64,000 nt of DNA, from the NCBI RefSeq assembly GCF_900636535.1, contig NZ_LR134289.1:4923501-4987500 (forward strand), in the 5' to 3' direction. This document shows, piece by piece, positions 1 to 19,911 of this stretch (its first letter is position 1; every line of letters starts with the position of its first letter). This stretch comes from Chryseobacterium gleum. Lineage in GTDB: Bacteria > Bacteroidota > Bacteroidia > Flavobacteriales > Weeksellaceae. The position numbers and the translations under genes are program-made. The notes under the pieces were generated by a model. That model made no database searches and was not told where the DNA came from. It saw only the letters and a list, made by a program, of their open reading frames with translations.

Positions 1-2595
1 CCTTAAATGCTCAAATAAATGTTGGATATTTAGGTTTTTATGGCGCTGTAAGTCAGTTCGTGACAATAGGGCGTATAAGATCCGAGCGGAATTATAGGCA
101 TGTATTAATAAATTACTAAACAATCTTTCCCTGTCTTTTTCTTCTATATATTCGTCTTTTAGATTAAAAATTGATCGCTCGAATATATATTCATACCAGT
201 CCTGTTTTTCGATTAGTTTAATTAAATCACCGTCGCCCGATTTTCGGGATGCATGGAATAAAAATATTCCGCAGCCTTCGCGAATAGGAGATCCTTCAAT
301 AAACTGGTCATTTAGAAAATTTTCAAATTCTGCGGGTGAATTTTTATAAGTTTTGGAGATCAGATATTTAGACAATAGAAAATCACGAAATTCATCGAAT
401 GTAAAGTTGACAGTTTCCGATGTGTCAAAAATATCATCATTATTTTGTAGGTCACGACGAACCAATATATTTTCATCAAGAAATCTAATGTACAGTTCCT
501 TGTTTTTGCCGTGAATAATATCATCAAGGGGTATATTGGCGTATTCGTTATGTTTTATCATGTATTCAACGATTGCCAAGATAAACTTCTTGATATCGAT
601 TTCTCCACTTATACCAAAATCGTCATTCGATTTAAGACGATCATTTATTTCCTTGGTTTTTACCTCAAAGTATTGTGTAAACAGTTCCTCTTTGTAAATA
701 TTTTCAACCTTATGAACGTCCTTACCTTGGTAGGCATCACAAAAAATCCGCAACAATAAAAAATTATCGACCAGCTGGCCATAGGCTTTATGGCTAAAGG
801 ACTTATACTTGATTTTAAAGTGCTCAAGATATCTGTCAAAAAGCTTTCGGTTTACTTTGTCTTCGTGGTGGTACCTATAATTGTTAAGCGAATCAATTTG
901 TAAAATTTCCTCTTTGAAGCTCGAGTTTTCAAGTTTTGCAAAATTAGCTTTGTAGTATTCTGTTCTACAGGTCAGGATCATACGCACAAAGTCGTAATCA
1001 AGAATTTCTGATATAAATTCATTAAGGGACTTACTCAGTTCAGCTGGATTACCGTTTTCGTTCAGTCCGTCAATAATAATTACAAAACATTTACCGGTTT
1101 TTAGTGCGTAATCTTTTAGTTCAGCCATAAACTCCACAAAGGTTACTTCCTCACCATCAGGAAATACTCTTTTAAGAATTGAGCTTCTGATATCGTTTGC
1201 ATCAATTTCTGTTCCCAGCAGAAAGACGCACGGGATATCTAATTTGAGCAGAAAATTTTGTGAGAAGTCACATACAAAATTTGTTTTCCCCTGACCTGGC
1301 ATTTCTTTGATCAATGCAACCTTGGATTTTAGACTTTCCAGATCAGATAGATTATCTCTCAATTTGTAAGAAAACAAACTACATTCATTTCCAAGATTTA
1401 TTTGTTTGATTCTGTTATCAGTATCTCGGAGATTTTGTAACCAGTTTTGCGCCTGTTCACTGATATTGGTAATGTTCACTTGCTTAGGCTCGAATTTAAA
1501 TAACGAGGGATTAAAACTAAAAGGTGGAAGGGCCAGTTTTTTCAGTCTTTTCTCCAAAGCAGAAAAGTCCAGAACCTCTACTTCTTTAAGACACTTCTCG
1601 GCAAATAAAACAGGATGAGCCATATTTCGAAGTAGATCCTTCTGCCGGCCCATCTCTATAAAGGTGTCGGGAATGTACTTACCTGAATTTATCTGCTTTT
1701 TAATCTGACGGTTCGTCTGAATTTTTAGTGCTTCATGAACTTTTTTTTTTGAGGTTGATAATTTATCAACTATTTTCTTAGGGGCCGTTGTGGTCAAAAT
1801 ATCATCAAAACCATATGGAGAGCTAAAAACATGTTCACAGAGATTAACTGCTGAAGAAATAGCTACTTTTTGGTTATGGGCCTTCTTTTTACTTTTGTTA
1901 CCGTCAGCGTAATCGCAGATTGCTTTTACTAAAATCCAATGATGGACCTGGCCGTCGCAGGCTGCATAAATGCCGGCGCCTTCCATTTCCCCGCCGATTG
2001 CAGTTGGTTCAGCTTTTAAAAGTTCATCCCTAAATTCCTGGTCGTCAATAAGTTTTTCTCCGGATAATATCAAGCCGGAAATTATTTGCGGTGTACGTGT
2101 GCCGATCTTATACTCCCAATCGGTCACTGACTTAAACCTGTTAACGAGTACTGAACTTGCAGGGCCTTCTTTTCCACGGGGTATCACTTTTATGCCAACC
2201 CTTTGAGATTCGTAAGCAACGATCCTTTCTGCTACTAAAACATCGCCTATTTTTTGCTTCTTTTTATCAATACCAAATGCTATACCTACCATGAGTACAG
2301 CTTTGGGTTTCCATAAAGAAATTGCGTGCATTGTTGTTGTAATAGATCCATTTCTGCTTACGGCTCCCATGTCATCGCATGCGACATGAACTGCAGGATA
2401 GGCTCCGAAGGTCCCTAAAAAATAAGTCTGTTTATCTTTTGATACTTTTATAATTTTATCCTCTTCTGGTAAGGGCTTTAAATATTGATGAAGTTCTTTT
2501 TTCTCAGTTTCTGTTGCAGTAACTATGAGTAGATTAAATAATTCATCGTTTGCGGTAATAAATTCGGAACCGACCTCCTTGTACGAAATCTTCAT
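1..2595 (-). CDS. Nucleoside-phosphorylase-like / STAND (NACHT-type) NTPase fusion, 3' end outside window
   Basis: The frame is open from an ATG at 2595-2593 to the left edge, giving 865 residues without a stop, so the C-terminus is missing. Residues about 15-260 resemble the PNP/MTA-SAH nucleosidase fold: MVGIAFGID near residue 105, the motif EMEGAGIYAA at 203-212 and CDYADG with D228 and D231. A second module has a Walker A motif GQGKT with K437, a Walker B strand ending in D509 (IIIDGLNE) and the sensor-like LTCRTEYY around 543. FDEFRDFLLSKYL, near residue 730, is typical of bacterial STAND/NACHT ATPases. Phosphorylase-like domains are known N-terminal effectors of such anti-phage NTPases, where a C-terminal sensor region triggers them. 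The sensor region lies outside the window, so the trigger is unknown. An immune role is inference; the domain assignment is firm. Confidence 0.88.
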   Translation of the reverse strand, partial: MKISYKEVGSEFITANDELFNLLIVTATETEKKELHQYLKPLPEEDKIIKVSKDKQTYFLGTFGAYPAVHVACDDMGAVSRNGSITTTMHAISLWKPKAVLMVGIAFGIDKKKQKIGDVLVAERIVAYESQRVGIKVIPRGKEGPASSVLVNRFKSVTDWEYKIGTRTPQIISGLILSGEKLIDDQEFRDELLKAEPTAIGGEMEGAGIYAACDGQVHHWILVKAICDYADGNKSKKKAHNQKVAISSAVNLCEHVFSSPYGFDDILTTTAPKKIVDKLSTSKKKVHEALKIQTNRQIKKQINSGKYIPDTFIEMGRQKDLLRNMAHPVLFAEKCLKEVEVLDFSALEKRLKKLALPPFSFNPSLFKFEPKQVNITNISEQAQNWLQNLRDTDNRIKQINLGNECSLFSYKLRDNLSDLESLKSKVALIKEMPGQGKTNFVCDFSQNFLLKLDIPCVFLLGTEIDANDIRSSILKRVFPDGEEVTFVEFMAELKDYALKTGKCFVIIIDGLNENGNPAELSKSLNEFISEILDYDFVRMILTCRTEYYKANFAKLENSSFKEEILQIDSLNNYRYHHEDKVNRKLFDRYLEHFKIKYKSFSHKAYGQLVDNFLLLRIFCDAYQGKDVHKVENIYKEELFTQYFEVKTKEINDRLKSNDDFGISGEIDIKKFILAIVEYMIKHNEYANIPLDDIIHGKNKELYIRFLDENILVRRDLQNNDDIFDTSETVNFTFDEFRDFLLSKYLISKTYKNSPAEFENFLNDQFIEGSPIREGCGIFLFHASRKSGDGDLIKLIEKQDWYEYIFERSIFNLKDEYIEEKDRERLFSNLLIHAYNSARILYALLSRTDLQRHKNLNIQHLFEHLR

Positions 2596-2906: not shown

Positions 2907-3392
2907 ATGGAAATATTTTATAGTATCAGTATTGATGTAAGCATCAGCGACGTTGAAGCTGGATTATTACATAAATATTTGAAAATGCATCCAAAAGAAA
3001 GACTGTATATAGGTGAAGGGCATTTTGCATTTTACTTTAATGAGTTCGAACAAAACAAGGAGTTTGAATTAACGCTGAACACTGCAATCATTGATTCCTG
3101 CGTGACAGTTTTGGAGGACCAGGATCTGGGTGATCCGCTGGAAAATTTACTAAAGAGAAACCTTCTGGAAAAAATTTATAAGTGGTCAGATATAATTGAT
3201 AATGAACAAAAAGCTATTGATGAGTTGGAAAATGATTTTTATATGAATTGCACTGAAGAATTTTATAAGGCGGATATCGGTTTTAGTTTTGAAAATTATT
3301 TAAAACTCCATAAGCAGGCTAGTCATGTTCAAATTTTAATTAAACAAAAGGCATCTCTGTTAGAGAAGGTTATGCGCTTCTTTAAGCTGTAA
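2907..3392 (+). CDS. Hypothetical protein, 161 aa
   Basis: I do not recognise this protein. It is acidic and has no signal peptide or clear membrane segment. The C-terminal half (residues about 85-161) is rich in Leu, Lys and Glu and looks helical, possibly coiled-coil. It starts with an ATG in a divergent position to the STAND NTPase gene and stands alone, followed by a long non-coding gap. Its place in an accessory region next to a defence-type NTPase is the only context for its role. Functional assignment is not possible from sequence alone. Confidence 0.6.
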   Translation: MEIFYSISIDVSISDVEAGLLHKYLKMHPKERLYIGEGHFAFYFNEFEQNKEFELTLNTAIIDSCVTVLEDQDLGDPLENLLKRNLLEKIYKWSDIIDNEQKAIDELENDFYMNCTEEFYKADIGFSFENYLKLHKQASHVQILIKQKASLLEKVMRFFKL

Positions 3393-4453: not shown

Positions 4454-7400
4454 ATGGATATGAAATTTATTAACAAAAAGACATTCTTACTGTCCTTTCT
4501 ACAGATTTTCATTTCGCTGATGACCTTCGGGCAATTTGTAAGCCCTTCGCAGTATTTTCATGATACGCAGGGGAATATAGATGTAAATGAAGGAGGACAG
4601 CTTCAATTTAATATGGCAATCGATTTACCGCCCGGCGTTAAAAATGTATCTCCGCAGGTAGGTCTTGTTTATCTGAGTGGCGCTGGGAACGGTACTGCGG
4701 GGTACGGATGGAATATTTCGGGTATTACATCAATCTCCAGGGTTGGTAAAAATATAGAAAAAGACGGTGAATTTAGGGGCGTACAGCTTGATTATTCCGA
4801 TTACTACAGTTTTAACGGTCAACGTTTAATTTTGAAATCAGGCGAGTATGGTAAAGATGGAGCGGAGTACGTAACGGAAAAATTCTCGAACACAAAAATT
4901 AAGTCTGTAGGTTCGATCACAGGTCAAATCTGGAGTGGGCCGGAATATTGGGAGGTTACTTTAGCAGATGGTTCACTGGCATGGTACGGAGCAACAGCTT
5001 CGGGAAGTAGTAATGCCAGAACTCCTCTGGAATATAATATTGTTAAGTGGAAGGACCCACAGGGAAATTATATCTCGTATGACTATCTGCAGGGCAGCGG
5101 AACGAATGTTTCATTGATCTCGAGTATAAAATGGGGCGGTAATGAAAGTCTGGGAAAAGCTCATTATAACGAGGTTCAGTTCAATTATAATGGGACATAT
5201 ACAAGGCAATTAATCGAACAATCGTACGTCAATGGAATCGCTTTAATACAGGACAAGCTTCTGAACAGCATTGTATCAAAGACTAATAACTCACAGTACC
5301 GCAAATATGAAATCACTTACAAATTAGATGTTTCAAAATATCAGTTTGTCGATAAGATACAGGAGTTCAGTGCTGACAATCAACCAGCAAATCCGATCGA
5401 ATTTCACCGTAATGAAAATCAAAGTGGTGCGACAGGTTCTGTTTCTGATGGTACATGGACACCGTTTCGCGAAATGGCCCTTAGTGGTGATTTTAGGGGG
5501 ATACACAGCACTGATTTTATTGTATATAATAATGCTTGGGGAGGTAATCCCACGGGATATTATTTAAGTACAGGTGGTAATACTTCGCCACTTTATTATT
5601 TAGGAACAGAAAATGTATACAACGGCGCGATTCCGATAACTATTAAAGACAGCAATAATTATACGAGCAGCCGGCAGGGTTTTGTTTCATATACACTGAA
5701 TTCCACAACAAAGGATGTAACGCTGAAATATTATCTTATTGACCTTACAAAACCTATTTCCTATACGGGTTCAGGTTTTCTCTATCCCAATGCGTTGACC
5801 CTTGTTGAGACTAAAGTCATTCCGGGAAGCCAGTGGAGCGAAACAGAGCACACATCGACAACAAATCCTTTAACTTACTATGATAAAACATCGTCTATCA
5901 GAAAACTGCTTCAATATGACATTGATGGCGATGGCATTTCTGAGGTACTGATTGAAAAATCGATCCGCATCACCAATACATGGTGTCCCGGTGGTGGCGG
6001 AGGTGGTACCGTTGATCCTAGTTTAGATCCAAACGGACGGCCGATCAATTGCGAGAGTTCCAGCATAGATGAAACAAAATATTTCGTTGCCAAACAACAG
6101 GACAGCACATTTCCATATGTTGAATTTTACCTAACCAAAAGTGAGGACATTGTCATGGGAGACTTCAATGGTGACGGTCTTGATGATATAGCGCAATCCA
6201 GTCCGAATTGGGGTTCTACGGTAAATGGTGAATTCGTACCTGCTAATTTATTACAGGCATATAATGTCAAAAAAGATGCCCAGGGGAATTACAGTTTGGT
6301 TGAAGTCTACAATGCGGACTATTTGGGCTTATCGGCGAGTGTACAGGTAGCAGATTTCAATGGCGATGGAATTTCAGATCTATTTAGCAGAACGAATGTT
6401 AACAACCATTACTTTGTGAATCTGAACAACGGTAAAAGCTTTGAGAAAACGCCATATTTCAATGATTTTAATGCTACTGACAGTTATACATCATCTCAAA
6501 ATGGTTATTATTCAACTGCAAAGGTTTTGGACATCAATGCCGATGGAAAGTCGGATATCATAGATTTTAGTACAAGCTATAATATCGCCTCACCGACATC
6601 AGCAAGTTCATCTTTTACTATCAAGGTTCGTCCGAGCCAAGGTTACGCGAATGGTAAGATACAATTTGGTTCCGATACCCCGGTAACGAATAATTATAAT
6701 GCACCTCTTATTTACAGGGAACTTTTGGGACTAAGACAGAATGAGTTATATCTGTTCAGACCCAGTAATTCAAATGTGGGGGGCATAAACAATTATTATC
6801 ATTTTTCCAACCTGCAGAGGGCAATGGTGGAAAGAATAAATCAGGCAGGAAGGGGAACCTTAATCAGCTACGATACAGGGATAAGTGGATGTGCAGCGTG
6901 TTATACAGGTGTTAAAAATGAACAATATCCATTGATGGAGCTGGCGAATGTAAATTCACAACTGGTTTCAAGGATTTCTGAATGGGGTAATCAGCCTAAC
7001 AGTGGCAGATTTAAATTGTTCCGCTATCGTGGCCTTATTATGAACCTGCACAATAGAAAGACGATAGGTTTTCGACAAATAGCAAGTTCAGCATGGAATA
7101 CAACTATTTATCCTGCAAACACTTTACTTAGTACGCACGTATGGTCCGGGGTGGAAACCGACCCACTTAACCAGGGTGCAACCATTAAGGAATGGTCGAT
7201 CAGAACCAACGATGAAACTAAAATATTTCCAGCGGATATTTCTGAAAACAATAATCAGCTTTTAAGTTTTAAATCTACGGTCTATCAGACGGACAAACTT
7301 GTTGACGGACAAATAGTGACAACTGTCAACGATGGCAATAAGGCTAAAGTAGTAACGGCAATTTTTCCGAAAATAACCAGAGCAAAGGATTTCCTGACGG

Positions 7401-10400
7401 GTGCGGTTTCCGAAAGTACCGTGACTTATGGCGATTTTTATCTTCCTTCCCAGACCCTATCGAAACTTAATACTTCGTATGCAGTTAAGACTACCAATTA
7501 CCTCTATGCTAATAATCCAGCTGGAACTGGAGCAAATTATTATGTCGGACGTCCGTTATCAAAAAATGAAACTGTACAGGCTTATAGTGATGTACAGTCG
7601 AACAAGGAAGAGTACACCTATGATAATAACAATCTAAAAACGGTAAAAAAATGGAATAGGGACAACTCCGGTTATCTGCTGGATACATTTACCTATGATG
7701 GTTTTGGTAATGTAACGCAAAAGGTTACTAGCAACAGTATTGATTCCAGTACGGAAAGTAATGGTAAAGTATATGATGCAACGGGACGTTTTGTATCCAA
7801 GCAGACTGATAATCTAAACTTAGAGACCAATAGTACTTATAATATCTGGGGGAAATTAGAGACTCAGACAGACCCTTTCGGAATTGTTGTTACCAATACA
7901 TATGATTCATGGGATAAAATGTTAACCTCAGCATCAAATTTAGGTGGAATTACTACCTATCAATATGACAAGGATAACAAATATAATGTAACCATTACTC
8001 AACAGGCTGCGGATGGGAATGTGACCAAAACTTTTACAAATGAATGGGGTCAGGTCTATAAAAAATCCAGCAAGGCATTTGCGCAGGGACAGTTCATTTC
8101 AAAAGATACGAAATATGATATTTTGGGTAGAAAGACTGCTGAAAGCGAGCAGTATTTCGACAGTGGTTCCCCTACATTATGGAACGTAATTACGTATGAC
8201 GATACTGTCTATCCGGTGAAAGTGACCACAACTGGTTTAGCTACCTTAAACGCTTCTGGAGCCATAAGCTCATTTGTAGGAAAGAAAGTGGAAACAGTAA
8301 CTTCCGGAGTAACCGTTACCACAACTGAGCTTAATAATTATAATAAGGTTACCTCAAAAACTAGCGATATACTTGGAAACATCATTTCCTCAACAGACAA
8401 GGGCGGAACGATCCAGTTCAGTTACAATGCTGCAGGACAGCAGATCAAAGCGAAATATGGTGAAAATACAGTCAGTACAAAATATGATGTATGGGGCAGA
8501 AAGTCCGAACATAACGATCCATCCAATGGCGTGTATAAATATGAATTTGATGGATTAGGAAAAGGAAAAAAGACGACCAGCCCTAGGGGAACAAAGGAAT
8601 TTGTCTATAATAATCTTGGGCAATTAATATCCCAGACCGAATTTTCAACAATTGATAGTGGTCAGACCACTAACAAAAGCATTTCTTTCGGATATAACAC
8701 CAAGGGACAGCTTACCTCAAAGTCCGGCACAGTTGCAGGTCAGGCTTTCAGCACCACCTTTACTTTCGATACTTATGGTAGACCATTATCTTCAACAGAG
8801 AACAGCAACGGGAAGAAATACCTTGAAAAGAATATCATTTATGATAGTAAAGGAAGAATATCTTCTTATGAAAAAGAACTGCAGTCTGCTGGAGTTACGA
8901 CCAATGTAAAGATCGAAAATGTTTACAGCTCGTGGAACGGTGAACTTTATCAGTTAAAGGAAAAAAATTCAGGGAAGATCTTGTGGGAACTGCAGACCAG
9001 CAATTCAAAAGGGCAGGCGCTGACAGCCAAATTAGGTGGTACAAATATTCTAAATTCTTATAATGAAGCGACAGGTTTCCTAACTGAGATCAAGCACTCC
9101 TCAGTGGTACAGCAAAGTATTTTAAATATCAAATATACGTTTGATGCTGTTAAAAATGAACTGAAGCTCAGGGAGACATTAGGTGATTTCAATATTTCAG
9201 AATCATTCAATTATGATGAAAACAACCGTCTGATCAACTGGACTGATCCGAGAACAGGACAGCTTTCTCAAAATACCTATGACATTAAGGGTAGAATCCT
9301 TCAAAATGACCAGGTAGGTACGATGAAATATGAAAATCAGTCTAAGATTTACCAGCCGACGGGAATGACATTGAATGCCGCAGGAACACAGAATTACAAC
9401 GGTGATCTTATTCAATCGATACTTTACAACGAGAATAATGATCCTGTACAGATCAATGGCGAAAAAGACCGTATCAGTTTCAAGTACGGGCTAGGTTCGA
9501 TGAGGCAGCGTGTCGATATTATTAAGTTAAAACAGTTCGGCGGTGGAGATCCGGGAGATCCACCCGTGGAGTCATTTTCAACAGGCGAGAACTTACAACC
9601 TCTGCCACCAGTTTGGCAGGTTCAGGAATCTAAATTTTACAATGAAGACGGAAGTTTTGAGATTGTATTCGACCAGACAACAAACCAGGAAAAGCATATT
9701 CTTTACATTGCTGGCACACCTTACGAATCGAACATAGTTTTCTTAAAGAATTTTGGGGAGAGTACTGGATCATTTAAATTTTTGCACAAAGACTATCTGG
9801 GAAGTATCCTGGCGATCACAGATGAAGCCGGCAATAAGTTAGAGCAAAGACATTATGATGCCTGGGGGAACTTTACTCACCTAAAGATAGGTTCCGGAGC
9901 CGTTATTACGGATAAGGCAACGCTGAAAACGGCAAGCTTACTTCTTGATCGTGGATATACCAGCCATGAGCATTTTATGCAGGTAGGTATCGTCCACATG
10001 AACGGAAGGCTGTATGATCCGCTATTAAGAAGATTTTTGAACGCGGATGAAAATATCCAAGATCCTACGAACACGCAGAACTATAATAAATACGGTTATG
10101 TAATGAATAATCCGTTATTATATAATGATCCAAGCGGGGAAATATGGGGTTGGTTAATTGGTATGGTAGTGGGAAGTTACATTAGCGGGGTTCAGGCCAA
10201 TCATGGACAGTTGAACCCTGTAAAATGGGACTGGAAACAGACCTGGACAGCTGTTGTGGGTGGTGCATTTGCCGGAGCAGCCATTGGGCAGAGTATTCAG
10301 AATATCAGTGTCAATGGGACCAAATTCGTACAAAACTCCGTAGTAGGCGCTGTTGGAAGTATCTTTAATGGGTTAGCGACGGGACAGAATATCTTTAAGA

Positions 10401-11119
10401 GTGCGTTGGTAGGATTTACGGGATTAAGCTATTCCTTTAATATTGGTGGGAATAATGTGACCGCTACTGAAGGTATTGCTGATCGATTTAAGTACATCAT
10501 ATCCCCAGATTACAATCAGAGCGGTTCAGATGTTGATGTTTTTGGCGGGTATATGCCTTTAACAAAGGAAATATATGCACAGTACATTTTAGGAAGGGGA
10601 AGAGGACAGCTGAGTGGAACTGACGAAAATTATTTAGGGCATATGTTTGAAAAGGTATTTATAGATTGGGCTCAGTTTAATATTGGACCTAATGTAAAGG
10701 ATAATACGATCGGAAAAAATTACTACGGTACCGTTCCTGATGCGACCTCACCATTGGCAACCGATACCAATTATGTGCCTGACGGCGTATTTTATGAAGT
10801 TAAGAATACTTTTAGAAATATTGGAATAGCAACTGCGCAGGTAAAACGAGAAATGAATGCATTATCAATCAATAATTTGACGCACGGAATTCCGGGCGGC
10901 GTAATGATCATCGCTTCTCCTGCAGGGGTTAATCTAACAGGCCCATTGATGGGATATGCTAGAAATTTAAACATCGATCTTGTTCATTTTTACAGTATGT
11001 ATAGAATGGAAGGGAGTTTGATGAAGGTTCGCTTTATGACGTCCTCAATCATAAACCTATTTAATACAGCGGTAAAATTGGGTGGTACAAGTGTACCTGC
11101 ATATAGAACTCCAAATTAA
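4454..11119 (+). CDS. SpvB/VCBS/RHS-repeat polymorphic toxin with PD-(D/E)xK-like C-terminal domain
   Basis: This 2221-aa protein has a signal peptide (residues 1-27, ending TFGQ) and then an SpvB-like N-terminal domain (about 30-130, with GAGNGTAGYGW). Four FG-GAP/VCBS-type calcium loops follow: DIDGDGISE near 487, DFNGDGLDD near 568, DFNGDGISD near 633 and DINADGKSD near 692. YD/RHS repeats span about 1050-1680, and the conserved RHS core lies at about 1800-1896 (HYDAWGNF to YNDPSGE). The core marks the junction with a variable toxin of about 325 residues. In that tail E2066, P2109-D2110 and E2115-V-K2117 fit the restriction-endonuclease-like PD-(D/E)xK pattern, so a nuclease toxin is likely. 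A glycine stretch interrupts the region near 515. The next gene is placed as immunity. Contact-dependent competition is the usual role for such proteins; the route of delivery is inferred. Confidence 0.9.
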   Translation: MDMKFINKKTFLLSFLQIFISLMTFGQFVSPSQYFHDTQGNIDVNEGGQLQFNMAIDLPPGVKNVSPQVGLVYLSGAGNGTAGYGWNISGITSISRVGKNIEKDGEFRGVQLDYSDYYSFNGQRLILKSGEYGKDGAEYVTEKFSNTKIKSVGSITGQIWSGPEYWEVTLADGSLAWYGATASGSSNARTPLEYNIVKWKDPQGNYISYDYLQGSGTNVSLISSIKWGGNESLGKAHYNEVQFNYNGTYTRQLIEQSYVNGIALIQDKLLNSIVSKTNNSQYRKYEITYKLDVSKYQFVDKIQEFSADNQPANPIEFHRNENQSGATGSVSDGTWTPFREMALSGDFRGIHSTDFIVYNNAWGGNPTGYYLSTGGNTSPLYYLGTENVYNGAIPITIKDSNNYTSSRQGFVSYTLNSTTKDVTLKYYLIDLTKPISYTGSGFLYPNALTLVETKVIPGSQWSETEHTSTTNPLTYYDKTSSIRKLLQYDIDGDGISEVLIEKSIRITNTWCPGGGGGGTVDPSLDPNGRPINCESSSIDETKYFVAKQQDSTFPYVEFYLTKSEDIVMGDFNGDGLDDIAQSSPNWGSTVNGEFVPANLLQAYNVKKDAQGNYSLVEVYNADYLGLSASVQVADFNGDGISDLFSRTNVNNHYFVNLNNGKSFEKTPYFNDFNATDSYTSSQNGYYSTAKVLDINADGKSDIIDFSTSYNIASPTSASSSFTIKVRPSQGYANGKIQFGSDTPVTNNYNAPLIYRELLGLRQNELYLFRPSNSNVGGINNYYHFSNLQRAMVERINQAGRGTLISYDTGISGCAACYTGVKNEQYPLMELANVNSQLVSRISEWGNQPNSGRFKLFRYRGLIMNLHNRKTIGFRQIASSAWNTTIYPANTLLSTHVWSGVETDPLNQGATIKEWSIRTNDETKIFPADISENNNQLLSFKSTVYQTDKLVDGQIVTTVNDGNKAKVVTAIFPKITRAKDFLTGAVSESTVTYGDFYLPSQTLSKLNTSYAVKTTNYLYANNPAGTGANYYVGRPLSKNETVQAYSDVQSNKEEYTYDNNNLKTVKKWNRDNSGYLLDTFTYDGFGNVTQKVTSNSIDSSTESNGKVYDATGRFVSKQTDNLNLETNSTYNIWGKLETQTDPFGIVVTNTYDSWDKMLTSASNLGGITTYQYDKDNKYNVTITQQAADGNVTKTFTNEWGQVYKKSSKAFAQGQFISKDTKYDILGRKTAESEQYFDSGSPTLWNVITYDDTVYPVKVTTTGLATLNASGAISSFVGKKVETVTSGVTVTTTELNNYNKVTSKTSDILGNIISSTDKGGTIQFSYNAAGQQIKAKYGENTVSTKYDVWGRKSEHNDPSNGVYKYEFDGLGKGKKTTSPRGTKEFVYNNLGQLISQTEFSTIDSGQTTNKSISFGYNTKGQLTSKSGTVAGQAFSTTFTFDTYGRPLSSTENSNGKKYLEKNIIYDSKGRISSYEKELQSAGVTTNVKIENVYSSWNGELYQLKEKNSGKILWELQTSNSKGQALTAKLGGTNILNSYNEATGFLTEIKHSSVVQQSILNIKYTFDAVKNELKLRETLGDFNISESFNYDENNRLINWTDPRTGQLSQNTYDIKGRILQNDQVGTMKYENQSKIYQPTGMTLNAAGTQNYNGDLIQSILYNENNDPVQINGEKDRISFKYGLGSMRQRVDIIKLKQFGGGDPGDPPVESFSTGENLQPLPPVWQVQESKFYNEDGSFEIVFDQTTNQEKHILYIAGTPYESNIVFLKNFGESTGSFKFLHKDYLGSILAITDEAGNKLEQRHYDAWGNFTHLKIGSGAVITDKATLKTASLLLDRGYTSHEHFMQVGIVHMNGRLYDPLLRRFLNADENIQDPTNTQNYNKYGYVMNNPLLYNDPSGEIWGWLIGMVVGSYISGVQANHGQLNPVKWDWKQTWTAVVGGAFAGAAIGQSIQNISVNGTKFVQNSVVGAVGSIFNGLATGQNIFKSALVGFTGLSYSFNIGGNNVTATEGIADRFKYIISPDYNQSGSDVDVFGGYMPLTKEIYAQYILGRGRGQLSGTDENYLGHMFEKVFIDWAQFNIGPNVKDNTIGKNYYGTVPDATSPLATDTNYVPDGVFYEVKNTFRNIGIATAQVKREMNALSINNLTHGIPGGVMIIASPAGVNLTGPLMGYARNLNIDLVHFYSMYRMEGSLMKVRFMTSSIINLFNTAVKLGGTSVPAYRTPN

Positions 11120-13494: not shown

Positions 13495-15834
13495 ATGCAT
13501 CCAATTGATATTGTAGGTTTTAGAAATTTCAGAATATTTAATGATCACGATGGATTTTTCGAGAACTTAACTGCTATTAATCTGCTTACTGGCACCAATA
13601 ATTCAGGTAAAAGCTCTATAATTAAGGGAATGCAGCTGTTGAAGAATAGTGTTAGCGGAGACGTCTTTCCAAATGAATTAGATTTAACGGATCAGGAGCA
13701 TTTGTTGGGAAATCTTGAAAACTTGTTATTTAATAAGGAAAACAAGGAAGTTATGATTTCCTTACCATTCAATTATTTTGGTCAGAGATACACATACATT
13801 AAGCTTACATATTCTGTTTTGGATACAGATTCTTACAAAGGAAAACTTAGGAAAATGGAAGTTTGTGACGGAAAGGACCATGATTTTCTGTTTTATTTTG
13901 AATTTAAGAATGCAACTGAGGAGGATATTGCAGATGACAAGAAGGAGTATGAGAAGCAAACCCAGGAATATGAAAAGCTAATTCAAGATCCAGATATTTC
14001 AAAAAAAGATCTTTGGAAAATTTATGGCATTTTCGCAAGACCATTCGAAGATCCTATGGTTGGTCTCGTGGAATGGAAGTTCAATTCTAGCAAATTGAGC
14101 AGCTACTTGTCTGAAATATACGAATTTTATAATTTTTATGTAGAAGAGGAGCGTAACACTAGGTGGCTTGATTGGGTTGATAATATTGCAGAGAAAGAAG
14201 ATTATTGCTTTATACCTTCCGCTGTCGTCAATGCCTTCAGATCAAAACCGGATATTGGGAAATGGAACGATTTTATTAAGCAGTTAGAAGAAACTGGAGA
14301 TCGAAAGGGAAAACTTAAGATTGGTGATCATGACTTTGAGCCTCCGGAGGTTTTTTATCCACAGCCAGAAGTAGAAGATGTATTTTATGGAAGTATTTTG
14401 GAAATAATTAGAGATAATCTGAAATGGATGGAAACAGAAAGTACGGATGAAACTATTAACAAATATAATGTTCTGGAGGAGACATTCAAAAAAGGTTGGG
14501 AAGTTTTAAAGCACCGTTTACTTTCTATAAATTACCTATCAACGGTTCGCGAACAGCATGTAAGAATTTATAACGCGTCCTTAAATTCTCCTTTCGTAAA
14601 TTTGCTAAAGGCTTATATACCTTTGCAGCATGATCCTAATACATTCGTGAATAAATATTTACAAGCGTTTGAAATTGGGAAAAGATTAGATGTCGAATTA
14701 AGACTTGATTATCAGTTGATTTTCGTTTCGGTCATTGATAATATTGGGAAAAAAAGAGAGCTCGTTGATTATGGTTATGGAATCAAACAGCTTATTTTAT
14801 TATTAATTCAAATAAGTGTATTAGCAGAAAAAAATAAAAGAATTCTACATGACTATGGTGACGATGGTGAATATTATATGGATCAGTTCGACCCGAGTTT
14901 ACTTTTGATCGAAGAGCCAGAAACGAACTTACATCCAAAATGGCAGTCGTTACTTTCGGAAATGTTTTATGAAGCTAATAAAAAATTTAATATCCAATTT
15001 GTTGTTGAAACTCACAGTGAGTATTTGATACGCAATTTTCAAAATTTGGTCGCGAGTAATAATGATTTTTCAGATTCCATAAAAATATTCTATTTAAGGA
15101 ACATACATGCATTAGCCGACGGTAAGAAACAAGTTGAAACAATTGCAATTGCAGAGGATGGAAGCATAAATTATGAAGCATTTGACAGTGGTTTTTTTGA
15201 TGAATCCAACAATTTACAGTTAAGCCTTCTTAATATTAGGCGCGATCGCTTTATCACCGAATTCATAGGCTTAAAAAAGAACCTTGATGAAAATGAAGAG
15301 AAGATTACTCTTTTGGAAGAAAAAATAGATGAATATCATCATAAAACTGATGTACAACGTTATGTGCAAAATATATGTTCTATTTTTAACAGTGCAAAAC
15401 TTGATAATAGAACGATAGATTATTTGGCATCTGGCCAGTATCTTTTAAATATAATCAGTGTAGGCAGTGATTTTTCTCCGGTTGTTCTGCAGTATGGAAG
15501 AGCTATGGAAAATGAGTTAAAGAAATTGTTCGGATCTGTTAATGCTACCAAAAAGTGGAAAATAGGTGTAATGCAGGGATCTCTGGAAAAATTTAAATTT
15601 GGAATGAACAGGATATCTGTTTGTTGCAATGCATCTGAGTTTACCTTATTGAATACCGTTTTAAGTTCTATGTTTGTTGATCCTTTATCGTTGCAGATCG
15701 ATATGATCAATGAACTAAGAGAAACTCGAAATAATGCTGGCCACCCTGGGATTTTAATGGCGAAGCAGGACGCTGAGCAATATATAGAATTAATGACCCA
15801 GTTTCTTTTAACATGGTCAGATAATATTGTGTAA
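13495..15834 (+). CDS. OLD-like AAA ATPase with C-terminal HEPN-like RNxxxH motif
   Basis: The 779-aa protein starts with an ABC-type ATPase half: IVGFRNFRIF at 6-15 and Walker A GTNNSGKSS at 33-41 (K39). The Walker B / signature region is LLLIEEPETNLHP (E473, E474), with a switch-like VVETHSEYLIR near 502-512. The ATPase parts are separated by an insertion of roughly 400 residues. This is the AAA_15/OLD-type arrangement used in many phage-defence ATPases. No Toprim metal motif is evident at the C-terminus. Instead the last 100 residues carry R745-N-N-A-G-H750, the R-x4-H pattern of HEPN ribonucleases. The gene follows a 124-aa gene by 14 bases. An RNase-linked defence role is inference; the ATPase call is firm. 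Confidence 0.85.
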   Translation: MHPIDIVGFRNFRIFNDHDGFFENLTAINLLTGTNNSGKSSIIKGMQLLKNSVSGDVFPNELDLTDQEHLLGNLENLLFNKENKEVMISLPFNYFGQRYTYIKLTYSVLDTDSYKGKLRKMEVCDGKDHDFLFYFEFKNATEEDIADDKKEYEKQTQEYEKLIQDPDISKKDLWKIYGIFARPFEDPMVGLVEWKFNSSKLSSYLSEIYEFYNFYVEEERNTRWLDWVDNIAEKEDYCFIPSAVVNAFRSKPDIGKWNDFIKQLEETGDRKGKLKIGDHDFEPPEVFYPQPEVEDVFYGSILEIIRDNLKWMETESTDETINKYNVLEETFKKGWEVLKHRLLSINYLSTVREQHVRIYNASLNSPFVNLLKAYIPLQHDPNTFVNKYLQAFEIGKRLDVELRLDYQLIFVSVIDNIGKKRELVDYGYGIKQLILLLIQISVLAEKNKRILHDYGDDGEYYMDQFDPSLLLIEEPETNLHPKWQSLLSEMFYEANKKFNIQFVVETHSEYLIRNFQNLVASNNDFSDSIKIFYLRNIHALADGKKQVETIAIAEDGSINYEAFDSGFFDESNNLQLSLLNIRRDRFITEFIGLKKNLDENEEKITLLEEKIDEYHHKTDVQRYVQNICSIFNSAKLDNRTIDYLASGQYLLNIISVGSDFSPVVLQYGRAMENELKKLFGSVNATKKWKIGVMQGSLEKFKFGMNRISVCCNASEFTLLNTVLSSMFVDPLSLQIDMINELRETRNNAGHPGILMAKQDAEQYIELMTQFLLTWSDNIV

Positions 15835-15944: not shown

Positions 15945-17408
15945 TTAAGTAGCGGCTTTTATTATAATCTTAATAATAGTTGTAGTCATGTCCAACATCG
16001 TCTCGCTGTCAGTTTTTCCAACATTATCGTCATGTTTCACATATCTATTATGATATTTTGTTATGTTATCGATATTTGCCCAGATAAGATTGGCTATTTC
16101 GGGCAGAACTTTTCGTGAGGTTAGGAATTTTTTCAGTTCTGCCTGCTGATTCTCAAGGGATTTTTCATTATTTAATATTTCTTTTACAAGTAATTCAAGA
16201 CTTAGGCGTAAATCATCGACAGCATTTCGTTGATAAATATTATTTTTAAATTTTTCGACTGCTGTATTGTATGCGGCCTCGGCCTTTGGAAACATGCTAA
16301 GAATTCCGGAAACCTCCTCGATTTTCTCTGCGCTATCATCAATAGGAGATGTCATTCTTAGGTCTTTGTACTGGGTAATAAGGAGCTGTTTTAGCTGGAT
16401 TGCACCTGGAGTTCCGCTGTATGAATCACAGAGATCATTAATAATTTCAAACTGTTCGTTTGGACTAAAAGCCTTAAGGTTTTCAAAGAACGCTGTTCTT
16501 TTATTTGAAACCTTTTTTCCGTTTTTATCTTCAAGATTGAGGAAATTTTTATCAGCATAAGGTATATCTCTATTAAATTGTACCGCCCTTTCGGTGAAAT
16601 ACTTTGCAATCTGTGTCCATGTCATACCTTTATCTCTTTCTGCAATGACATCTGCAGCGTGGCTTAAAAATGCTTCTTTTATTATCATATTTTGGTTGTG
16701 TAAATAGCATAGGAATTTATAGGCTTCATTCGCGTCAATGTAATTAATTAGTTCAGTTAGTTCCCATATTTTTAGGTTGAAGGGTTCTGGCTTTCCTATA
16801 ATTAAATTATTAAAATACTGTTTGGTTTTACTATTGACTTCACTTTCATATTGTACCAATATTTGTGTTTTGGTTTGCTTTATGACTTCATCTTTGAAAG
16901 GAGATAATAGCAATTGTTTATTTAAATCGTCAACTCGTGAAAAGAGGTCTGTCTTGCAATACTTCTCCTTACCCTTGAAAGAAAAAAGATGATTTTTCCA
17001 AAGATTGTATTGCATCTTATTATAATCCTCGATTTCGCTTGAAGTCTCTGGTAATATTGATAATTCCTGATCTTCATTTATATAAGTTGCGCAATAATTA
17101 ATACCAAACCTGTTTATCCAGATATCGAGTTTTTCCCTATAACTGGATGTTTTTTCAAGTTCTTCTCGAAGTGCTGTAAAGGACTGGTTAAACATTAACA
17201 AATAGAGTTTCTTATTTTTTTTATTTTCAGGAATTTTGTTGCAATTGCTGCAATTACAGTAGATTTTACTGACCTCGTGACCATCGTTATCTTTGGTGAA
17301 AATTCTTCCCCTACTTTGCAAAATATCGTAATGTGCCATCCAGATTGCAAATTTGTCATCTATTTTCTCTTTCGAATTTATAAGTAATGCAATTTCATTA
17401 TTTGTCAT
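15945..17408 (-). CDS. Hypothetical protein with HEPN-like C-terminal domain, 487 aa
   Basis: The protein lacks a signal peptide. Near the N-terminus it has C51-N-C53-S-N-C56, a possible metal-binding cluster, then helical segments with no motif that I can name. The last 90 residues are helical and hold YHNRYVKHDD (R455, H459) preceded by a long helix, as in the C-terminal domains of abortive-infection proteins of the HEPN group. The spacing R-x3-H is shorter than the usual R-x4-6-H, so nuclease activity is uncertain. The gene converges on the OLD-like ATPase across a shared terminator. It could belong to the same defence locus or be a separate cargo gene. Confidence 0.7.
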   Translation of the reverse strand: MTNNEIALLINSKEKIDDKFAIWMAHYDILQSRGRIFTKDNDGHEVSKIYCNCSNCNKIPENKKNKKLYLLMFNQSFTALREELEKTSSYREKLDIWINRFGINYCATYINEDQELSILPETSSEIEDYNKMQYNLWKNHLFSFKGKEKYCKTDLFSRVDDLNKQLLLSPFKDEVIKQTKTQILVQYESEVNSKTKQYFNNLIIGKPEPFNLKIWELTELINYIDANEAYKFLCYLHNQNMIIKEAFLSHAADVIAERDKGMTWTQIAKYFTERAVQFNRDIPYADKNFLNLEDKNGKKVSNKRTAFFENLKAFSPNEQFEIINDLCDSYSGTPGAIQLKQLLITQYKDLRMTSPIDDSAEKIEEVSGILSMFPKAEAAYNTAVEKFKNNIYQRNAVDDLRLSLELLVKEILNNEKSLENQQAELKKFLTSRKVLPEIANLIWANIDNITKYHNRYVKHDDNVGKTDSETMLDMTTTIIKIIIKAAT

Positions 17409-18025: not shown

Positions 18026-18151
18026 ATGAAAACTACTATTTTATTTGGGACTGTTGGTTTGAACATCAGAGTTCCAACTTATGATCGTGAAGATGTCCAG
18101 ATCTTCCAGAGACCATTACAAAGAAAGTCAAATGTAATTTTATATCTATGA
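18026..18151 (+). CDS. Possible 41-aa leader/coupled ORF before the recombinase
   Basis: An ATG at 18026 opens a 41-codon frame (MKTTILFGTVG at the start, NVILYL at the end). Its TGA stop overlaps the recombinase ATG as ATGA at 18148-18151. This overlap is typical of translational coupling. The product has no motif that I recognise. The frame could also be a chance ORF; the exact overlap is the main support. Confidence 0.45.
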   Translation: MKTTILFGTVGLNIRVPTYDREDVQIFQRPLQRKSNVILYL

Positions 18152-19911
18152 AAAAGAATTTTAGCAGTAAGATTGCGGATCTTTATATCCGTGTGTCCAC
18201 AGATGAGCAGGCTGACAAAGGGTATTCACAGCGTGACCAGGCGGAGCGACTGCAGGTATACTGTGCTAAATATGGTATTGCCGTTGAGAATGTCATTTTT
18301 GAAGACCATTCAGCAAAAAATTTTGACCGTCCCGAGTGGAGCAAGTATCTTAAGAATCTTAAGAAAAGGAATAGGAGCGATAGGGAACCTAGATTAATCT
18401 TATTTACGAAGTGGGACCGTTTCAGCAGAAATATTGGCGAGGCATATCATATGATCAGCGTTCTGGAAGGTTTAGAGGTAGATCCACAAGCTATAGAGCA
18501 GCCGCTTGATCTTAAAATTCCCGAAAATAAAATAGTTCTGGCAATCTATCTTTCAACCCCTGAAGTAGAAAATGACCGTCGGGCATTAAATGTGTTCTAT
18601 GGTATGAGACGGGCAAGAAAAGAAGGTCGTATAATGGGAATTCCACCCTACGGATATGTTAATAGATGTACAGAAGATGGTACAAAATATATCGGAGTGA
18701 AGCATCCAGAAGCGGAAAATATTGTTTGGGCGTTTGAGGAGATTGCAAAAGGTGAGTTGCCATCTGAACACGTCAGAAAATTAATGAACAAACGAGAAGG
18801 TAAAGACCTTACTAGAAATGCCTTCATGGTTGCTGTTCGAAATCCTGTTTATACAGGAAAGGTATTTATTTCTGAGTTTGAGAACGAGGCTGCACATTAT
18901 GTGAAAGGTAAACACGTACCACTCATTACCGAGGAACTTTTTGATAGGGTGCAGAAAGTTTTGGAAGGAAAGAGTAGAAGGAATAATTCCGAGCAGGGTG
19001 AGAATAGAGTACTACATAATGAAAGCTTCCCATTAAGAGGAGTATTAATTTGTCCACGCTGCGGAAATACGCTGACGGCAAGTACTTCAAAAGGAAATAC
19101 AAAACGTTATAGTTATTATCATTGTAATTCTAAATGTGGTTTTCGCCATAATTCAGATGCCGTAAACGAAAAGTTTATAGAAAATCTACGTGAATTTGAA
19201 ATACTGCCGGAATACCGAGATACCTTAAAGGTTATTCTTTTAAAGAATTATCGAAAGCATTGCAGTAATGTTGATGGGGAAAGACAAGCAATCACCGAAG
19301 AGATTGATAAAATTACTCAGAAACTCAGTAAGGCAAGAGATTTATTTTTGACTGATAGACTGGACGAAGAAGATTATGCACAGGTAAAATTAGAATGCAA
19401 ACACAAGGTGGATGAGCTGGAAGAAACCTTGAAAGGTTTAACGAAAGCAAGCAAAGATCAGGATGTCCCTGGTAAGTTATCTGCAGCCTTGGATTCTATT
19501 TCTAATATTGCTAAGAGATACATTGACGCGTCGGTAAAAGATAGAAGAAATATAGCCAGTTCAATTTACTACCATAAATTAGAATTTGATGGCAGACGTT
19601 TTCGAACTCCAAAATCAAATGCTTTTTTGAATCTTATTAAGCTGAGTAAGAACGATTTAGATAAGCAAAAAAAAAGTCATCAGAATCTAAAAAATCCTGA
19701 TGACCATGAAGTGAGCGCGAAAGGATTCGAACCTTTGACCGTCTGCTTAGAAGGCAGATGCTCTATCCAGCTGAGCTACGCACCCTTAAAAGTTGATTCC
19801 CGCTTAGTTAATAAGCACATTAAAAAGTCGGGGCGGCAGGATTCGAACCTGCGACCTCCTGGTCCCAAACCAGGCGCGATGACCGGACTACGCTACGCCC
19901 CGAATATATAG
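18148..19911 (+). CDS. Large serine recombinase; 3' part of the frame overlaps host tRNA genes
   Basis: The N-terminal resolvase domain has the catalytic serine at S17 (LYIRVSTDEQ) and the conserved LFTKWDRFSRN. A recombinase domain follows at about 150-260, then a zinc ribbon with C302, C305, C326 and C330. A coiled-coil stretch spans about 370-430. This is the build of the integrases of phages and mobile elements. After about residue 500 the frame crosses a terminator and reads antisense through tRNA-Arg and most of tRNA-Pro, giving the well-known spurious strings KGFEPLT and DSNLRPPGP. The natural stop was probably lost on integration, so the last 75 or so residues are host-derived read-through. 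It is likely the integrase of the island to its left. Confidence 0.88.
   Translation: MKKNFSSKIADLYIRVSTDEQADKGYSQRDQAERLQVYCAKYGIAVENVIFEDHSAKNFDRPEWSKYLKNLKKRNRSDREPRLILFTKWDRFSRNIGEAYHMISVLEGLEVDPQAIEQPLDLKIPENKIVLAIYLSTPEVENDRRALNVFYGMRRARKEGRIMGIPPYGYVNRCTEDGTKYIGVKHPEAENIVWAFEEIAKGELPSEHVRKLMNKREGKDLTRNAFMVAVRNPVYTGKVFISEFENEAAHYVKGKHVPLITEELFDRVQKVLEGKSRRNNSEQGENRVLHNESFPLRGVLICPRCGNTLTASTSKGNTKRYSYYHCNSKCGFRHNSDAVNEKFIENLREFEILPEYRDTLKVILLKNYRKHCSNVDGERQAITEEIDKITQKLSKARDLFLTDRLDEEDYAQVKLECKHKVDELEETLKGLTKASKDQDVPGKLSAALDSISNIAKRYIDASVKDRRNIASSIYYHKLEFDGRRFRTPKSNAFLNLIKLSKNDLDKQKKSHQNLKNPDDHEVSAKGFEPLTVCLEGRCSIQLSYAPLKVDSRLVNKHIKKSGRQDSNLRPPGPKPGAMTGLRYAPNI
19667..19704 (-). terminator. 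Terminator of the tRNA operon, inside the recombinase frame
   Basis: On the minus strand an eight-base stem GTCATCAG / CTGATGAC with an A/T loop is followed by nine T residues. It begins 7 bases past the tRNA-Arg 3' end. Confidence 0.85.
19712..19785 (-). tRNA. tRNA-Arg (anticodon UCU)
   Basis: The 74-nt gene folds as a cloverleaf: acceptor GGGTGCG with CGCGCTC, D arm GCTC/GAGC, anticodon stem TCTGC/GCAGA around loop CTTCTAA (anticodon TCT), and T loop TTCGAAT. CCA is not encoded. It is the last gene of the Ser-Pro-Arg operon and the likely integration locus of the island. Confidence 0.95.
19828..19902 (-). tRNA. tRNA-Pro (anticodon UGG)
   Basis: The 75-nt cloverleaf has acceptor CGGGGCG with CGCCCCG, anticodon stem CCTGG/CCAGG around TTTGGGA (anticodon TGG), and T stem GCAGG/CCTGC. 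CCA is not encoded. Confidence 0.95.

Follow-up and report, generated by a model that had tools for sequence, protein, structure and literature searches.

The question raised by this locus is with which partners, and on which signal, a protein joining a nucleoside-phosphorylase-like domain to a STAND NTPase would act. The gene lies at the left edge of the window, the whole analysed stretch of 64,000 nucleotides from Chryseobacterium gleum (contig positions 4923501-4987500 within a one-contig 5.6 Mb genome). It was found to be the first gene of a four-gene cassette, followed by two small, probably paralogous genes, ORF130 and ORF137, and a gene for a radical-SAM/SPASM enzyme. The four genes almost certainly form one functional unit, for which an anti-phage role is predicted as very probable. 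The initial annotation had proposed an anti-phage protein; that reading remained very plausible, whereas the lone gene was replaced by the cassette.

The phosphorylase-STAND gene and its cassette

The window positions 1-2595 of the minus strand are occupied by a single open frame of 865 codons, and together with the flanking genome sequence these were determined to be the first 865 of 976 codons. When the sequence left of base 1 was obtained, the gene was completed at contig 4923165-4926095 (minus strand, 976 residues). Its 3' end lies 336 nt left of window base 1, and the rest of the gene (contig 4923165-4923500) encodes 111 residues. The C-terminal sensor had been described earlier as cut off by the window edge. 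This did not hold, since the window lacks no more than these 111 residues, and a common C-terminal end point is shared by 103 of the 120 listed homologs. The co-terminal homologs indicate that the protein has no continuation corresponding to the last ~700 positions of the Avs2 profile, which we take to be the Avs2 sensor. A large sensor on the same chain is thereby excluded; a short one within the last 220 residues is possible.

The fusion itself was confirmed, and the motifs EMEGAGIYAA, CDYADG, K437, D509, LTCRTEYY and FDEFRDFLL named in the initial annotation were all present. The phosphorylase-superfamily, nucleosidase-like effector domain (residues 23-245; window 1861-2529, minus strand, as are all features of the gene) matched Pfam PNP_UDP_1 (PF01048) above the cut-off with an E value of 1.7e-15 and the PADLOC model 'Effector PN-superfamily' with 1.9e-19. 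At the sequence level, methylthioadenosine/S-adenosylhomocysteine (MTA/SAH) nucleosidases in PDB were matched with a best E of 3.5e-10. E205 and D228 align with the EME and SD motifs of these nucleosidases and are presumably the catalytic Glu and Asp of the nucleosidase branch. E31, E205 and D228 were invariant in 12 of 12 aligned phosphorylase-type sequences, the query included. With good confidence the N-terminal domain is predicted to act as a nucleosidase effector.

The STAND NTPase core covers residues ~390-760 (window 316-1428). The nearest PADLOC model was Avs2 (E 1.2e-27, residues 348-865), and the solved Avs2 structure 9o4e matched residues 424-758 with E 5.3e-9. GQGKTN with K437 in the Walker A region (residues 428-439; 1279-1314) and D509, G510, N512 and E513 in the Walker B-like strand VIIIDGLNEN (residues 505-514; 1054-1083) were invariant both in the phosphorylase-type alignment and in a second one. 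The short conserved C-terminal region (residues 761-976, of which 761-865 lie in window 1-315) is shared by the co-terminal homologs and had no Pfam match.

In total 257 homologs of the STAND protein were found, and alignment extents were taken from the 120 listed. Both the phosphorylase and the STAND part were aligned in 13 of these; in the other 107 the alignment begins further along the chain, at residue 97-424 and mostly at 235-295. The extents point to a module of ~700 residues (275-976) that is kept while the N-terminus is exchanged. The start of the module common to relatives with other N-termini is marked by KYIPxTFIE...KxxLR (residues 290-345; window 1561-1728).

The exchangeable N-termini were scanned with Pfam in 76 sequences, the query and those of 75 of the 84 loci described below (L004, L007, L017, L032, L035, L071 and L085-L087, being near-duplicates or having split or cut frames, were omitted). 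SMEK was matched 25 times, Trypsin 21 and Trypsin_2 18 times, the last two models overlapping, and the phosphorylase twice. A TIR-like domain, an alpha/beta hydrolase, NNH5 and a nucleoside deoxyribosyltransferase were matched once each, and the remaining families were NTPase or minor matches. The trypsin-type members were counted separately, from tblastn matches under E 1e-20. A metallo-beta-lactamase (MBL) gene was found upstream in 23 loci, including 22 of the 23 trypsin-type members; the exception, L066, begins at a contig end. The members with trypsin fused to STAND and an adjoining MBL gene are mostly Firmicutes. Of seven upstream genes tested with Pfam, six were confirmed as MBL and the seventh was REase-ARP. 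A REase-ARP gene of restriction-endonuclease type stands immediately upstream of the STAND gene in L014 (7540-8577), where it may be an effector on a separate chain.

Downstream of the STAND gene, ORF130 (contig 4922789-4923181) overlaps it by 17 nt, ORF137 (4922373-4922786) follows after a 2-nt gap, and the radical-SAM/SPASM gene (4921304-4922395, 363 residues) overlaps ORF137 by 23 nt. All four genes are co-directional on the minus strand and tightly packed, with STAND first. For the linkage analysis, 84 loci were fetched with STAND-family patterns alone, 80 from genomes (the best 80 of 90) and four from viral contigs. ORF137 and the radical-SAM gene were detected by tblastn directly downstream of STAND in 81 of them. 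L017 and L020 stop at contig ends, 379 and 186 nt past the STAND match, and the trio was not seen there; the third locus, L060, is considered below. The spacing between STAND and ORF137 was 335-460 nt, with an ORF130-like frame inside, in 78 of the 81 loci measured, the exceptions being L056 and L068 (ORF130 fused to STAND) and L071 (STAND frame split). ORF130 was detected by tblastn in 58 of the 84 loci; in the rest of the 81 a gap frame with an EYxxYYxxEY-type motif was read by eye.

By title, the trio-bearing records belong to Bacteroidota, Firmicutes, Alphaproteobacteria, Desulfobacterota-type and Sulfurimonas-type bacteria, Cyanobacteria, Chloroflexi, Planctomycetes, Acidobacteria, Spirochaetia, Verrucomicrobia, Nitrospirae, Omnitrophota and one Micrarchaeota bin; many of the loci are metagenome bins, and single taxon assignments may reflect contamination. 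Among 72,556 plasmids, eight records were matched by the STAND protein at E 1e-20, seven of them over the STAND module and the eighth, from Rhizobium etli, over the phosphorylase domain only. The searches with ORF137 (E 1e-3) and the radical-SAM protein (E 1e-40) gave seven records each, and the three sets are the identical seven accessions, five of them from Agrobacterium. The four of these regions that were inspected all contained STAND, ORF137 and radical-SAM genes together with a gene or a gap for ORF130, and their STAND genes were annotated 'SMEK domain-containing protein'. In the L092 region ORF130 was unannotated and was not found by tblastn, only a gap of fitting place being present. 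The pairwise distances, determined for 78 of the 81 loci, correlated between STAND core and ORF137 (0.91), STAND and radical-SAM (0.85) and ORF137 and radical-SAM (0.81), compared with permutation maxima below 0.1. As a separate observation, in the Rhizobium etli plasmid pA (L189, 3694-8977) a phosphorylase domain of 39 percent identity ends a 516-residue protein which heads a run of unnamed genes and perhaps belongs to another system using the phosphorylase effector.

The tag protein, its twin and the radical-SAM enzyme

ORF137 has 137 residues, an N-terminal tag, DFVTNSSSTSF, and a C-terminal Trp (it ends in NGW). NSS[ST]T was found near the start of the ORF137 homologs in 81 of 81 loci and the terminal Trp in 78, the exceptions being L038 and two loci with prematurely ending frames, L029 and L030. 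The ORF137 profile matched ORF130, which lacks the tag, in the source genome with E 7.8e-5. The two proteins are probably paralogs, as judged from the hhalign probability of 97.7 over 106 columns (profile alignments of 70 ORF137 and 56 ORF130 sequences, the query's included). Their predicted models were confident, with mean predicted local distance difference test (pLDDT) values of 90.7 for ORF137 and 90.5 for ORF130. Residues 1-10 of ORF137, which hold half of the tag, had a mean pLDDT of 54 and may be exposed; the following SSSTSF enters the first confident strand. Comparison of both proteins with Pfam, NCBIfam, PADLOC and PHROGs gave nothing convincing (lowest E 0.0045), and no match to ORF137 was detected in 50,697 phage records at E 1e-3. 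In the 80 genomic loci (7946 open reading frames) the strict tag pattern was present on no frame besides ORF137.

In L056 and L068 the STAND frame continues into an ORF130 domain, which forms the C-terminus of the STAND protein; the fused ORF130 occupies the place where STAND proteins carry the sensor. In another apparent fusion, of STAND to ORF137 (P0004), ORF130 is missing together with the final 77 residues of STAND and the very start of ORF137; it was left unused as a possible deletion or assembly error.

The enzyme matched Radical_SAM (PF04055, E 6.4e-15) and SPASM (PF13186, E 4.7e-6) above the Pfam cut-offs. CxxxCxxC was present in 78 of 78 enzymes (the set without L029, L030 and L071), and the eight cysteines of the C-terminal SPASM region were kept in 77-78 of them. 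The cysteine motifs, together with a linked candidate substrate bearing a conserved motif, ORF137, are the features of a radical-SAM/SPASM protein maturase, and the enzyme is likely to act on ORF137.

The tag was also found outside the cassette. When viral sequences were scanned with the alignment of ORF137, 29 loci were obtained: five with the cassette (L094-L098, four of which coincide with the viral contigs of the STAND patterns) and 24 phage-type contigs, each with one to seven otherwise unlike short proteins bearing the tag. The phage tag follows the pattern MK[IKR][KR]xDF[VI][TS]NSS[ST] (L099-L122, L162, L163-L188) and often stands near a related radical-SAM gene. Such a gene (E 2e-27 or better) was detected in 11 of the 24 tag loci compared with none of 38 control loci (339 and 360 kb, respectively), several of the 11 being near-identical. 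Seeding from one phage enzyme gave a tagged frame in 23 of 27 loci, all relatives of that enzyme, and in none of the 38 controls. This test is partly circular, as the L112 seed and its twin L163 were already known to carry the tag; without them the count is 21 of 25. Vibrio phage D479, found via the enzyme and not via the tag, has five tagged frames in 26 kb.

The L112 pair matched PHROG 7293 and 7397, neither with an assigned function. In the 50,697 phage records, relatives of the L112 enzyme were found in 163 and relatives of its tagged protein in 172, mostly Klebsiella and Enterobacter phages in both lists (the lists are of relatives, irrespective of the tag). In phage phi5 the two relatives lie ~19 kb apart. 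The source radical-SAM protein, used as a single query, gave no match among the viral contig patterns. The phage tag proteins and radical-SAM enzymes are predicted to be an unnamed protein-modification pair, and on comparison of sequences the pair of tag and enzyme appears wider than the cassette. This pairing beyond the cassette suggests that the tag is likely the recognition or modification site of the enzyme.

Proposed mechanism and alternatives

According to the proposed mechanism, the radical-SAM enzyme would modify ORF137, probably at the N-terminal tag [VI][TS]NSS[ST]. ORF137 and the tagless ORF130 would jointly serve as a sensor or lock in trans, placed on the C-terminal side of STAND, where their complex replaces the long sensor of Avs2. 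A trigger from the phage would alter the complex with STAND, the STAND protein would oligomerise with ATP bound, and the phosphorylase-type domain would cleave the glycosidic bond of a purine nucleotide, by analogy with Detocs-type effectors most likely ATP or dATP, after which the infected cell would stop. In the relatives the same module would drive other effectors, namely SMEK, a TIR-like domain or a protease paired with an MBL gene. The chances that ORF130 and ORF137 are a trans sensor or lock were judged to be even, and the whole cassette as a STAND anti-phage cell-shutdown system, with a radical-SAM-modified tag protein in trans and a predicted nucleosidase effector, was placed slightly below that. 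ORF137 may be a decoy, since the same tag stands on several phage proteins and related radical-SAM enzymes are encoded by phages. In this extended form, which is tentative and rather doubtful, the cassette would be an unnamed, widespread but rare NLR-like immunity whose sensor, the radical-SAM-modified ORF137 with its tagless twin ORF130, watches the tag-modifying pathway of the phage and fires an exchangeable effector, here a nucleosidase.

Several points weigh against the mechanism. L060 has 9 kb of downstream sequence without the trio; its STAND frame is truncated (806 residues) and has 449 residues after Walker A versus 524-655 in the other 82 of the 83 loci with the motif. Near-identical loci (e.g. 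L006/L007, L029/L030, L080/L086) mean that the counts are not those of independent events, and the fusions in L056 and L068 may be a single event. Beyond the 58 tblastn loci, ORF130 is assigned by position and the motif read by eye. The correlated distances show joint travel and not interaction and are expected of any co-travelling genes. The partner was not found in 13 of 24 tag-bearing and 4 of 27 enzyme-bearing phage loci, and Escherichia phage RB16 has the related radical-SAM gene and no tagged frame in 30 kb. The tag protein was found in one of 395 sampled genomes of the phylum, namely the source genome, so the distribution gives no hint of the trigger. ATP as the substrate is an analogy, the closest solved structures cleaving MTA/SAH. 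Finally, the C-terminal 220 residues of STAND could themselves be the sensor.

The last point leads to the best surviving alternative, in which STAND senses the phage itself via these residues and the trio makes a separate modified product, toxic or signalling. The co-terminal conservation of the STAND C-terminus is consistent with it, and radical-SAM-processed peptides have been proposed in an eLife 2020 paper (PMC7159879) as a toxin or signal beside an AP-ATPase effector. However, ORF137 is predicted to be a folded domain with a tagless paralog and not a short peptide precursor, and the two loci in which ORF130 is joined to the C-terminus of STAND point to contact and not to release. This alternative is considered unlikely. 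In the comparison with strain ZHDP1 all 58 amino-acid differences of the STAND protein were within residues 1-793, and a hypervariable C-terminal sensor was rejected.

The enzyme could instead act on STAND or, viperin-like, on a nucleotide, ORF130 and ORF137 being its partner proteins. Viperin models were matched in PADLOC (4e-13) and NCBIfam (3.4e-10, far below the NCBIfam cut-off). The best NCBIfam match, however, was a peptide maturase, also far below the cut-off, and the SPASM domain and conserved cysteines are typical of protein or peptide maturases; to our knowledge viperin has no SPASM domain. The phage enzymes, moreover, adjoin tagged proteins where no STAND gene was found, and this alternative was regarded as improbable.

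A stress or housekeeping regulator, of comparably low probability, would agree with the fact that we know of no phage assay for the cassette family. It is opposed by the interchangeable effectors, by the rarity of the cassette and by the places where it occurs, which are plasmids, phage contigs and a mobile island. AbiE-, Ptu- and AriA-like genes were also matched by PADLOC models near the cassettes (113 flanking proteins from 14 loci, with no random control), the Avs1a/LmuA/RTasMBL matches of the scan being the MBL partner gene. The strongest tie of the family to defence is the pair of protease and MBL gene, which is a shown anti-phage effector in Hachiman and AVAST (PMC12799240). That an ordinary phosphorylase-STAND defence gene stands by chance beside an unrelated radical-SAM cluster is hardly credible, for although the source element holds other, unrelated genes, the gene order is the same in 81 of the 84 loci, which come from records of many phyla, and the parts share the same 7 of 72,556 plasmids.

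If the proposed mechanism is true, the cassette would be an immune switch dependent on radical-SAM protein modification, joining the fields of STAND/NLR immunity and maturases, and a case where the trigger module is genetically separable from the effector. The NSSST tag would be a testable substrate for a maturase family common to bacteria and phages and unnamed in the libraries used, and the cassette is a candidate multi-gene defence system that is unannotated and occurs in the records of many phyla.

Genomic setting and comparison with known systems

The initial annotation placed the gene at the head of a genomic island. This was not supported, as the sequence left of the window, past the 3' end of the gene, holds the three cassette genes and also SSB, DUF932 and PRTRC genes (TIGR03736, E 7.1e-64). 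The PRTRC-system genes (ThiF-like, B, E) and a phage/plasmid-like TIGR03299 protein (L002, 9659-16344) indicate that the element extends past the window. A possible type VI secretion cargo cluster, a VgrG-like tip protein below the NCBIfam cut-offs followed by small genes, was seen in L002 at 4506-7678. On the other side, a serine recombinase frame, weakly Ccr/XisF-like, occupies window 18148-19911; its C-terminus is the translation of tRNA-Arg and tRNA-Pro genes of the opposite strand, and the site is probably the attachment region of the island. Window 13495-15834 (an ATPase that PADLOC matched to NsnB-, AriA- and OLD-like models) and 15945-17408 (matching the PADLOC candidate PDC-S32, E 7.2e-57) are likely further defence genes of the same element. 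A protein of 2221 residues, YD/RHS-repeat-like by eye, is encoded at 4454-11119; upstream of it is a small protein with a sorting domain (Por_Secre_tail, slightly under the cut-off). Divergent from the STAND gene, a 161-residue protein of no known family (2907-3392) was found among the 84 loci only in Chryseobacterium sp. ZHDP1 (L004). That strain shares 19.9 kb of the region, 97.2 percent identical; ORF137 and the radical-SAM gene are identical in DNA, ORF130 has one base changed, and 163 codons of the STAND gene differ, 58 of them non-synonymously.

The literature search, in which most papers were judged by listing and subscription journals were thinly covered, gave no description of the cassette, the tag or phosphorylase-STAND proteins. 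In the search against the Avs family suggested earlier, Avs2 was the nearest STAND core, whereas the score was below the NCBIfam Avs2 equivalog cut-off (76.5 versus 1000 bits) and the best match covered profile positions 276-780 of 1504. The phosphorylase N-terminus and the downstream radical-SAM trio are further differences from Avs2.

The purine-phosphorylase-type effectors of Detocs and CBASS, which are ATP nucleosidases, share the phosphorylase-superfamily domain, whereas here the domain is under the control of a STAND module accompanied by the radical-SAM trio. According to a review (PMC12881547), ATP is hydrolysed by PNP_UDP-family modules during immune cell death. With bNACHT proteins the cassette protein shares the three-part STAND plan of effector, NTPase and C-terminal region, as outlined in PMC12169576; it differs in the accessory trio and in that Pfam NACHT models gave no match with an E value of 1 or lower.

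AVAST type 1 presumably consists of an MBL protein (Avs1a), a trypsin (Avs1b) and a separate STAND protein (Avs1c). The likeness to it and to the MBL pro-nuclease-trypsin pairs of PMC12799240 is in the relatives with a STAND-fused trypsin and an upstream MBL gene. The source protein, in contrast, has no MBL or trypsin match, the trypsin of the relatives is fused to STAND, and in the cassette family the pair is only one among several effectors that are exchanged. The word 'radical' is absent from the main text of that paper.

The nearest published idea found was the pairing of FxSxx peptides, radical-SAM-SPASM enzymes and AP-ATPases (of the VMAP ternary conflict systems), in which, according to PMC7159879, an enzyme and a small partner stand beside a STAND-superfamily NTPase. 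In the cassette, the partner is instead a predicted folded domain of 137 residues with the NSSST tag, a C-terminal Trp and no FxSxx end, and the NTPase is Avs2-like, without annotated tetratricopeptide repeats and with exchangeable effectors.

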